DNA of 64,000 bases from Opitutia bacterium ISCC 52 (GTDB lineage Bacteria > Verrucomicrobiota > Verrucomicrobiia > Opitutales > UBA2995). Location: assembly GCA_014529675.2 (NCBI GenBank), contig CP076040.1:558001-622000 (forward strand). The letters run 5' to 3'. The notes under the pieces were generated by a model. That model ran no database searches and was not told the DNA's origin. It saw only the letters and a list, made by a program, of their open reading frames with translations. Shown piece by piece: positions 3,302 to 23,228 of this stretch. Position 1 is the stretch's first letter; each line of letters opens with the position of its first letter. A program made the position numbers and the translations under genes.

Positions 3302-3405
3302 GGTCGGTCGGATAAGTGAATAAGTTAATTCAGATTTGCGGAAGCAAAGCAGCTTTGGAGTCCTGAGACGTTTGTCACCTCAAATATGCTCTTACAAAAA
3401 ATACA

Positions 3406-3687
3406 TCACGATTTCGGATGCAGATACACCCAAGTCGCTCCCCAACCTCCAGTTCGATCATCGGCCAAATGAAAATCGCGAACCGTTTCCAATTTCGGGA
3501 GCAGTGCATGAACAGTCGCTTTGATGGTACCAATTCCGCGGCCGTGGACGACACGCACCTTGAGGATATCTTTTTCCTGGCAGAGCTCCAAGTAGTCAGT
3601 GACCAGGTCCTTCACATCCTGAGGCCTGAACTGATGAAGATCTAATTCACCATCGATGGGGTATTCGACCGGATCCGCGTCCTCCAT
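3406..3687 (-). CDS. Smr domain protein
   Basis: A 93-aa protein consisting almost only of an Smr (small MutS-related) domain. It begins with the LDLH-type element as ELDLHQF (about 14-20) and carries the glycine-rich VRVVHGRGIGT loop (about 47-57). Family members nick DNA or RNA, and recent work links some to ribosome rescue. The stand-alone form has no MutS2 partner here. The ATG lies 3 bp after the cstA stop, so the pair is translationally close. Its role next to a transporter is unknown. Confidence 0.85.
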   Translation of the reverse strand: MEDADPVEYPIDGELDLHQFRPQDVKDLVTDYLELCQEKDILKVRVVHGRGIGTIKATVHALLPKLETVRDFHLADDRTGGWGATWVYLHPKS

Positions 3688-3690
3688 CGC

Positions 3691-17596: not shown

Positions 17597-18343
17597 ATGG
17601 CAGTTAAAAAGAAATCCGCAACAGCGCCATTGACTTTCGATATCGGAGGAAAGCTATTGGACAAAATCGAAACCCTTCAGAAACGGTCCGGCGCCGCTTC
17701 AAAGAGTGAAGTGATTCGATATGCCCTTCAACAATTTGACTTTTCTGGAGTTCAAATTGAACCGAAGTCTAGCAAGCAAATTTCAGTTCGTCTTTCTAAC
17801 AAAGCAAAAACCGAGCTCCTTCGTGCTTCAAAGAAACTCAAGGTAAGTGTTGGTGAGTTGCTTCGTTTGAGTGTTGAGTCTTTGCCTAAAAGAATGGCTG
17901 CTGGCTCATTAGCTCCGGCTGCTCCTGCACCTAAAAAAGCGGCCAAGAAAAAGGCTGCTAAAAAAGCTGCCAAAAAGGCTGCTCCAAAGAAGGCCGCTAA
18001 GAAGGCCGCTAAGAAGGCCGCTAAGAAGGCCGCTAAGAAAGCCGCTAAGAAAGCCGCTAAGAAAGTCGCTAAGAAAGCCACCAAGAAAAAAGCTGCTCCA
18101 AAGAAGGCTGCTAAAAAAGCTGCCAAAAAGGCTGCTCCAAAGAAGGCTGCTAAAAAAGCTGCCAAAAAGGCTGCTCCAAAGAAGGCCGCTAAGAAGGCCG
18201 CTAAGAAAGTCGCTAAGAAAGCCGCCAAGAAAAAAGCTGCACCAAAGAAGGCTGCCAAGAAGGCTGCTCCAAAAAAGGCTGCCAAGAAAGCTGCCAAAAA
18301 AGCCGCTAAGAAAAGAGCCAAGAAAAGAGCCAAGAAAAAGTAA
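17597..18343 (+). CDS. Histone H1-like protein with two ribbon-helix-helix-like domains
   Basis: A 248-aa basic protein. The C-terminal half (about 110-248) is an almost pure Lys/Ala/Pro tail built of AAKKA and APKKA units, as in histone H1 tails and the chlamydial Hc1/Hc2 proteins, which compact DNA. The N-terminal half looks like two ribbon-helix-helix units: residues 12-47 (LTFDIGGKLLDKIETLQ ... SKSEVIRYALQQF) and 60-97 (KQISVRLSNKAKTELL ... VGELLRLSVESL), both with a strand-helix-helix pattern. It may therefore bind DNA as a single-chain pseudodimer. Own terminator downstream; monocistronic. Fold assignment of the N-terminus is inference. Confidence 0.78.
   Translation: MAVKKKSATAPLTFDIGGKLLDKIETLQKRSGAASKSEVIRYALQQFDFSGVQIEPKSSKQISVRLSNKAKTELLRASKKLKVSVGELLRLSVESLPKRMAAGSLAPAAPAPKKAAKKKAAKKAAKKAAPKKAAKKAAKKAAKKAAKKAAKKAAKKVAKKATKKKAAPKKAAKKAAKKAAPKKAAKKAAKKAAPKKAAKKAAKKVAKKAAKKKAAPKKAAKKAAPKKAAKKAAKKAAKKRAKKRAKKK
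17930..18340 (+). repeat. In-frame tandem codon repeats in the Lys/Ala tail
   Basis: The tail is encoded by degenerate repeats. A 12-bp unit, GCTAAGAAGGCC (and its AAAGCC variant), is repeated back to back from about 17990 to 18075. A longer block of about 39 bp (start GCTGCTAAAAAAGCTGCC, end GCTCCAAAGAAG) occurs from 17955, again from 18107 and immediately again from 18145. All units are multiples of 3, so copy-number change would keep the frame. Confidence 0.85.
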
Positions 18344-20988: not shown

Positions 20989-21017
20989 TTGGCACTCATT
21001 CTGCTCGATGCTATAAA
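20989..21017 (+). promoter_or_regulatory. Sigma-70-type promoter
   Basis: TTGGCA (20989-20994) and TATAAA (21012-21017) are separated by exactly 17 bp, close to the TTGACA/TATAAT consensus. The expected start of transcription is near 21024. It could drive a small RNA or the pckG message. Confidence 0.55.
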
Positions 21018-21023
21018 ATTACC

Positions 21024-21129
21024 ATAACGAGGGCGTACAACCTGTGCTAAATTTTTCTAAGAAACATTTCTCCTCCCAAAACCCATCCCTATGTAGCCTC
21101 GGAAGAGTATCTTCCGAGGCTCATTTCTT
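21024..21129 (+). ncRNA. Candidate small RNA (or pckG leader) ending in a 12-bp hairpin
   Basis: From the predicted start (about 21024) the transcript would run about 105 nt to a perfect stem AGCCTCGGAAGA (21095-21106), loop GTA, TCTTCCGAGGCT (21110-21121), followed by CATTTCTT. The unpaired middle has a pyrimidine-rich CTCCTCCC (21070-21077), which is complementary to Shine-Dalgarno-like sequence. No ORF with a plausible start is contained. The family is not recognised (it does not resemble 6S, SRP or tmRNA). The short T-run makes termination uncertain. Confidence 0.35.
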
Positions 21130-21284
21130 AAGTCATTTGGCGGCGTAGTCTTTTACCCAAGTGGAGCTTTGTAAGGTCGAGGTCTTCCAGCCTAAATATG
21201 AGGGGTAAAAAAAACATTTCGACTTTCTTTACCATTCGTATTACTAATAGTATGGGTGAATAATATAAGAATAAATAATATTAA

Positions 21285-23075
21285 ATGAATCCTCCCACCA
21301 AACACCGCCGCCTCCTTAAATGGATAGAAGATGTTAAATCCGTCTGCAAACCAGACAATGTATACTGGGCCGATGGGTCTCAAAAGGAATATGACACCCT
21401 GATGAATCAAATGGAGGATTTAGGTGTCGCTATCAGGCTAAATGAAGAAAAGCGTCCCAACAGCTTCCTGTTCAGATCTGATCCTAGAGATGTCGCGCGT
21501 GTGGAGAGCAGGACTTTTATTTGCTCGGTGAATCCAGAGGATGCTGGCCCTACTAATAATTGGGAAGCACCCCGCGTCATGAAGCGCAAGCTGTTGAAGA
21601 TCTACGATGGATGCATGCGTGGGCGAACCATGTACATCATTCCTTTTAGCATGGGGCCTATTGGATCTCCTATTTCCCAAATTGGTGTGGAAATCTCTGA
21701 TTCTCCCTACGTGGTTTGTAACATGCGGATCATGACCCGTATTGGAACTAAGGTTTTGGAGGCTTTAGGCGATCGAGGATTTTTTGTTCGCTGTGTTCAT
21801 TCAGTTGGTAAACCGATTCTGGAGCCGGAGGATGATGTCCCTTGGCCTTGTGATCCTGAAAATACCTATATTGCCCATTTCCCCGAAGATCGATTGATCT
21901 GGTCCATCGGAAGTGGCTACGGTGGAAATGCCTTACTTGGTAAAAAGTGTTTCGCCTTGCGGATTGCTTCCGCCATGGCTCGGGACGAAGGCTGGCTTGC
22001 AGAGCACATGTTGATCCTTGGCGTCAAAGAGCCTAACGGTGAAAAGACCTATGTCGCCGCTGCATTTCCGAGTGCTTGTGGAAAGACCAACTTTGCCATG
22101 CTCGAACCTCCCAAAGAGATGGAAGGTTATGAAGTTACCACCGTTGGTGACGACATTGCTTGGATCAAACCGGGAGATGACGGGCATTTGTATGCCATCA
22201 ATCCGGAAGCAGGATTCTTTGGTGTAGCTCCAGGAACTTCGGATGAAACCAATTATAATGCCATGGCCTCTTCTAGGAAAGATGCCATTTTCACCAACTG
22301 CGCATTGACCGATGATGGCGATATCTGGTGGGAAGGTATGACGGAAGAAACTCCCGCTCATTTGATCGATTGGAAAGGTCGAGATTGGACACCCGATAGC
22401 GAGGAGCCCTCTTCTCATCCGAATGCCAGGTTCACCGCTCCAGCTGAGTTGTGTCCCACCATCGATCCGGCATGGGAAGATCCGAATGGAGTAAAGATTT
22501 CTGCCTTCATCTTTGGTGGACGGCGGATGAATGACGTGCCTTTGGTGTTCCAAGGTTTTAATTGGACTCACGGCGTATATTTAGGTGCCACCATGGGGTC
22601 TGAACTCACGGCCGCTGCTGAAGGAACGGTCGGGAAGTTGCGTCGCGATCCTATGGCAATGCTTCCTTTCATTGGATACCATATGGGGGATTATTTCCGG
22701 CATTGGTTGAATATGGGGAAAAAGGTCAAAGAGCCACCTCGGATCTTTCATGTGAATTGGTTCCGTAAGAGCCCCGATGGTCGGTGGTTGTGGCCTGGCT
22801 TTGGTCAAAACATGCGTGTCCTTCGGTGGATTATTGAACGAACCAATGGAAACACGCGGGCCTTTGAGGCGCCTATCGGCTGGATGCCACACTATGAAGA
22901 TATTGATTGGCGTGGTATCGATTTCACCAAAGAGCAGTGGGACGATCTGATGTCCATCGATAGAGATAAATTGAAGATGCAAACCCTTCAACATGAGGAG
23001 CTTTTTCTGCAATTGTTCGATCGATTACCTAAGGAAATGATCTTTCTGCGTGAGCTTCTAATTGGAAGCTATTGA
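21285..23075 (+). CDS. pckG: Phosphoenolpyruvate carboxykinase (GTP)
   Basis: Converts oxaloacetate and GTP to PEP, CO2 and GDP in gluconeogenesis. The 596-aa length and the motif [12 protein letters not shown] (from residue 261; P-loop with the reactive Cys265 typical of GTP enzymes) separate it from ATP-type PckA. Other conserved parts are [27 protein letters not shown] and [17 protein letters not shown] terminator lies 28 bp downstream. Expression may depend on the promoter or hairpin in the 450-bp region upstream. Confidence 0.95.
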
Positions 23076-23138: not shown

Positions 23139-23156
23139 AGGAGGTTTTACAATAAA

Positions 23157-23178
23157 CATATCATTATATCCTGATATG
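23157..23178 (+). promoter_or_regulatory. Palindrome in the metK upstream region
   Basis: CATATCA (23157-23163) and TGATATG (23172-23178) are perfect inverted repeats around an 8-bp spacer, 50 bp before the metK start codon. It could be an operator or part of the promoter region. It does not match a known SAM or SAH riboswitch. Confidence 0.35.
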
Positions 23179-23228
23179 ATGATATTTTACTTGATAATCT
23201 CTTCTAAACTGCACTTATTAGTCCCCCT

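Follow-up and report, generated by a model that had tools for sequence, protein, structure and literature searches.

A candidate small RNA gene with a conserved C-rich patch upstream of pckG in Opitutales

Bacterial small RNAs (sRNAs) with exposed C-rich stretches are known from several groups. The alpha-r14 or NfeR1 family of Alphaproteobacteria (RF02344) carries the unpaired motif CCUCCUCCC (PMC10746234), an anti-Shine-Dalgarno (anti-SD) sequence, on each of three hairpins. RsaE and RoxS of Firmicutes contain several C-rich regions, which reportedly can pair with SD sequences, and are tied to central metabolism (PMC4409812, PMC6435200). SR1 of Bacillus subtilis, a 205-nt RNA that also encodes the peptide SR1P, is expressed under gluconeogenic conditions via the repressor CcpN (PMC7430163). 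MicX-type sRNAs come from the 3' end of a gene and have a promoter inside its ORF (PMC9438474). For the Planctomycetes-Verrucomicrobia-Chlamydiae group very few sRNAs are annotated, eight in one count (PMC9029176). Here we describe a locus of Opitutia bacterium ISCC 52, located in a stretch of 64,000 nucleotides of contig CP076040.1 (the window), that combines a C-rich patch with a neighbouring gene of central metabolism. A preliminary description had proposed either an independent sRNA with an anti-SD patch or an attenuating leader of pckG. Judged from sequence comparison, the region upstream of pckG looks like a real and previously undescribed sRNA gene.

The promoter-like arrangement TTGGCA-17 bp-TATAAA was read as in the preliminary description (Table 1). 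The perfect 12-bp stem with a loop of 3 nt was confirmed as well, with the letters AGCCTCGGAAGA-GTA-TCTTCCGAGGCT. The RNAalifold consensus contains one helix, the terminator, and leaves the 27-nt patch before it unpaired. The reported distance of about 105 bp from promoter to stem applies to the end of the stem (about 104 bp), but not to its start, which lies 77 bp after the -10 box. No protein gene had been seen in the interval; all its ORFs are short, with no hint of conservation.

Table 1 Features of the candidate sRNA gene and the adjacent pckG in window coordinates
Feature	Position	Strand	Remarks
-35 box TTGGCA	20989..20994	+	Candidate sRNA promoter; same hexamer in 5/5 homologues
-10 box TATAAA	21012..21017	+	17-bp spacing to TTGGCA; TGC before the box resembles an extended -10
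Predicted 5' part of the transcript	21024..21065	+	Near-constant length, variable sequence; start deduced from the -10 box
Conserved single-stranded C-rich patch TTTCTCCTCCCAAAACCCATCCCTATG	21066..21092	+	27 nt; near-invariant in five genomes, unpaired in the consensus fold
Intrinsic terminator hairpin	21095..21121	+	12 bp, 3-nt loop; folding and pair retention in homologues
Terminator tail CATTTCTT	21122..21129	+	Closes the conserved block; homologues have CATTTTTT or ATTTTTTG
pckG, GTP-dependent phosphoenolpyruvate carboxykinase	21285..23075	+	NCBIfam NF003253, 968.6 bits against a cut-off of 504

Within the patch, CTCCTCCC is found at 21070-21077. The fold of the candidate element is unusually stable (z = -4.6). 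The U-tract is poor in the window (CATTTCTT), but reads TTTTTT in homologues. Between 19000 and 24000, neither promoter patterns (4 seen against 6.5 expected) nor terminator patterns (4 against 5.0) occur in excess. In 464 kb of the genome, 69 terminator-like hairpins were compared; of these, the candidate terminator shows the largest upstream excess of C over G and is the only one preceded by at least two CCC blocks. A sigma-54 reading of TTGGCAC was rejected: GG and GC are 10 bp apart in the window's genome (G000), but not in the homologues.

The 396-nt intergenic region was compared by blastn with 53 related genomes. A single conserved block of 64 nt (21066-21129) was detected with 86-92% identity and E-values of 1e-19 to 7e-13 in four relatives, G001 and G002 of the same genus and G006 and G007 of a sister genus, and the rest of the region showed no conservation in these four. 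With G000 there are thus five homologous sequences from two genera in all. Named relatives are the Opitutales metagenome assemblies JAJDZZ010000043.1 and JAABVD010000034.1. TTGGCA lies 79-84 nt before the patch in each of the five genomes and is followed, after 17 bp, by TA. The -10 counterparts at this spacing are TATAAA, TAGTTT, TATAGG, TAAAGA and TAAAGA; those of the homologues are weak. Within the 140 nt upstream, CTTGGC and TTGGCA are the only hexamers that G000, G001, G002 and G006 have in common within 3 nt, and any such common hexamer appeared in 1 of 20,000 shuffle sets. The predicted first 40 or so nucleotides of the transcript could not be aligned between homologues. In the terminator, 98% of the pair cells are kept in the homologues and two pairs are changed on both sides among the five sequences; covariation of the stem is not significant, because only five sequences are available.

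As a control, 12 other intergenic stretches of the window were searched in the same genomes. In the sister genus, no comparable block turned up other than a protein-like stretch at 3302-3690, which from its sequence looks protein-coding, a dispersed repeat and one match of 27 nt. The repeat, at 1169-1243 with its core CATCGCGTCCTCGCGATG at 1218-1235, is a dispersed REP-like element including its flanks, with many matches in G001 and G002 and several in G006. Since the 64-nt block is conserved and TTGGCA is found at a near-fixed distance in five of five genomes, the element goes beyond chance. The check proposed earlier, for stem and patch in relatives, was run; both are kept and the candidate survived. 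By comparison, the predicted promoter, the patch and the terminator are retained in every relative with a readable site, while the surrounding DNA has changed beyond recognition.

A covariance-model search of 372 genomes of the order gave more than 90 bits in the five family members only. The next best matches reached at most 34 bits and were mostly terminators alone. At 24 loci of other Opitutales families, the element was not found upstream of pckG; at one of these loci (L096), CTCCC precedes a different terminator. A pattern match in Bacteroidia (L055) has no terminator arrangement and looks like chance. In the own genome CTCCC-n-CATCCC matched 38 times; of the 30 matches inspected, the 29 others are without the architecture of the candidate, and eight are listed without locus. 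As far as inspected, the element is single-copy in this genome. No credible family match was obtained with Rfam 15 at gathering and relaxed thresholds.

The element is located 140-180 nt upstream of pckG and co-directional with it in all five genomes with readable upstream DNA; in G004 the contig starts 28 nt before pckG, so that this genome stands outside the count. Neighbouring genes were identified by NCBIfam. The upstream neighbour is a divergent amidohydrolase gene in G000 and G001 and a co-directional icd (NADP isocitrate dehydrogenase) in G006 and G007, where the icd stop codon directly precedes the block. Hence, the element persists while the upstream gene switches. In G006 and G007, TTGGCA-17-TA sits inside the 3' end of icd, and coding need is thus a second possible reason for TTGGCA there. 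An icd of this type is absent from the window's genus, in which distant paralogues only were detected. G005 lacks both pckG and the element. In G003 (L022), pckG is a 3' remnant with stops beside the same amidohydrolase gene, and the element is absent.

Some further observations concern the surroundings. A palindrome-like site TACCATT-N9-AAT-GTA is located just upstream of pckG (21229-21250), with a similar site in G002, and TTACCA-16-TA immediately precedes the start of some other pckG genes in Opitutales. Between pckG and metK-ahcY lies a palindromic stretch of 40 nt, CATATCATTATATCCTGATATGATGATAT (23154-23193), kept to 98% in G002 and 92% in G001, a candidate operator for genes of the S-adenosylmethionine cycle. 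The C-terminal half of the ORF 17597-18343 is a lysine-alanine-proline repeat (KKAAPKKAAKK) like the tails of histone H1.

The patch had been described as anti-SD, and this part of the preliminary description found no support in the sampled genes. In 400 kb of G000 (C1:1-400000), 20 of 245 long ORFs were positive in the SD window compared to 27 of 245 in the control window, and 4 compared to 6 of the 72 unambiguous starts; the start positions are mechanical guesses, so that a weak SD signal could be missed, a strong one not. Anti-SD targeting as a general mechanism was rejected, because no SD enrichment was seen before the sampled starts. SD-scarce Verrucomicrobia are known (PMC10783764). Searches of six family genomes gave no Hfq (PF17209), whereas positive controls were detected. 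As an Hfq-dependent sRNA would need a host encoding Hfq, the candidate is best read as Hfq-independent. Sites nearly complementary to the patch were about as frequent as those of the reversed pattern in three of the five genomes and somewhat commoner in two. For 296 genes, the best duplexes of the patch near starts were hardly better than a reversed-seed control. No conserved target mRNA was found by near-complementarity in the five genomes or by duplex energy for the 296 genes. Some matches overlap the codons of GMGFG or AVGF motifs in abundant protein families; we consider these matches fortuitous.

We favour the view that 20989-21129 is an autonomous sRNA gene, with a transcript of about 105 nt and the patch as its working part, and assign it a probability of roughly 0.6. 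The comparison lends support to the independent sRNA of the preliminary description, since promoter, patch and terminator are kept and the remaining intergenic DNA lacks conservation. An own promoter is predicted from the conserved position of TTGGCA-17-TA in five genomes, an own intrinsic terminator is formed by the 12-bp stem with T-tract in all homologues, and no reading frame is conserved. A sigma-70-type promoter would start the transcript near 21024, and transcription would end at the intrinsic terminator 21095-21129. The unpaired patch UUUCUCCUCCCAAAACCCAUCCCUAUG just before the stem most likely pairs with G-rich stretches of at least one mRNA, without Hfq and outside SD sites, or may bind a protein. 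The comparison shows a conserved neighbour besides the predicted promoter, patch and terminator, and the permanent place beside pckG suggests that the RNA may act when the cell changes between sugar use and gluconeogenesis. In the sister genus the promoter sits in the icd 3' end, with the patch just after the stop codon, which suggests that the RNA was perhaps born as a 3'-end-derived RNA of icd and later became free-standing.

The linkage to pckG is compatible with a leader as well. Transcription starting at 20989-21017 would usually stop at 21121, and polymerase would read through into pckG once a protein or RNA binds to the patch. The invariable position upstream of and co-directional with pckG, in five of five genomes, fits this reading. 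Furthermore, G251, G372 and G295 of another Opitutales family have a similar patch and terminator with a possible antiterminator before an ABC transporter gene. However, a competing helix is not conserved in the five pckG elements, and the folds differ in every lineage. The RNA up to the terminator loop folds to -10.4, -2.8, -6.8, -15.1 and -17.7 kcal/mol with different shapes, and is surpassed in stability by the terminator hairpin alone (-18.9 to -22.3 kcal/mol) in every case. The five sequences therefore do not share a mutually exclusive pair of antiterminator and terminator helices, and an attenuator made of RNA only is not supported; a protein alone could bring about antitermination of pckG. 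The DNA after the terminator is not conserved between the genera, and the TACCATT...AAT-GTA site before pckG in G000 and G002 would fit a separate regulatory region. On balance, we regard a regulated leader as less probable than an sRNA gene.

An ordinary terminator that shields pckG from upstream transcription, without any regulation, would explain the position of the block directly after the icd stop codon in G006 and G007, where it would be the terminator of icd. With their divergent neighbour, G000 and G001 have no upstream gene that needs termination, yet they retain the promoter and the unpaired 27-nt patch. Conservation of this kind is not seen at other terminator regions of the window, and the patch is unique among the 69 terminator-like hairpins, which makes this explanation improbable. 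Least credible is a short conserved peptide gene. A GTG-initiated frame of 34 codons from 21044 crosses the block in the window and the block ends in AUGUAG, but its few substitutions are not confined to one codon position, the five upstream sequences have no start codon region in common and the block forms a terminator. We regard a peptide gene as very improbable.

Two weaker matches of the model search share the layout of the candidate. G251 has TTTCCCTCCCATCCCTATGTGGCC followed by a terminator upstream of the ABC transporter gene (L187), and this form is kept at the same locus in G372 (L188) and G295 (L189). All three carry a copy of the stem further upstream, AGCGGG[CT]C, that could base-pair with the terminator's 5' arm like an antiterminator; from their sequences, these loci appear attenuator-like. 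In G015 (L032), TTTCCTCCCATCCATCCCATCCCAGCCC and a terminator directly follow the stop codon of rpsT (ribosomal protein S20); the patch letters before this terminator are TTTCCTCCCATCCATCCCATCCC. A scan of the loci for pattern plus terminator returned these cases alone, and as the pattern was written after seeing them, the scan is a description and not a test. The C-rich patches at terminators in two other Opitutales families hint at a wider motif. Tentatively, a motif of the order could be imagined, present in at least three families at the unrelated loci of pckG, ABC transporter and rpsT, and read without Hfq and largely without SD by a dedicated protein or by pairing outside SD sites. The likeness may reflect shared descent or convergence.

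The kind of RNA proposed here, an intergenic or 3'-end-derived sRNA with a C-rich patch, is known, and the phylum has few known sRNAs. The candidate is comparatively well supported: its promoter and terminator are clear, and its association with a gene of central metabolism is fixed. It poses the question what an anti-SD-like C-rich patch recognises where no Hfq was detected and genes seem to lack SD sequences. Should the candidate be transcribed, it would be a starting point for studying how RNA regulates carbon flow in these bacteria.

Compared to alpha-r14, the candidate has UCUCCUCCC, one unpaired patch and one hairpin, and its genome shows no SD usage; with the RF02344 model it scores 9.4 bits against a gathering threshold of 58.8. 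RsaE and RoxS share the tie to central metabolism with our reading of the candidate, but SD sequences are seemingly missing in its host, and neither an Rfam match nor a sequence relationship to them was found. SR1 offers an analogy for an sRNA co-expressed with gluconeogenesis; it belongs to another phylum, and no sign of CcpN or of a peptide was seen for the candidate. From the MicX type the candidate differs by the lack of a detected Hfq and, in the window's genus, by standing alone, as an icd of that type is absent there. In G006 and G007, the promoter-like TTGGCA-17-TA inside icd is comparable to the ORF-internal promoter of MicX-type sRNAs.
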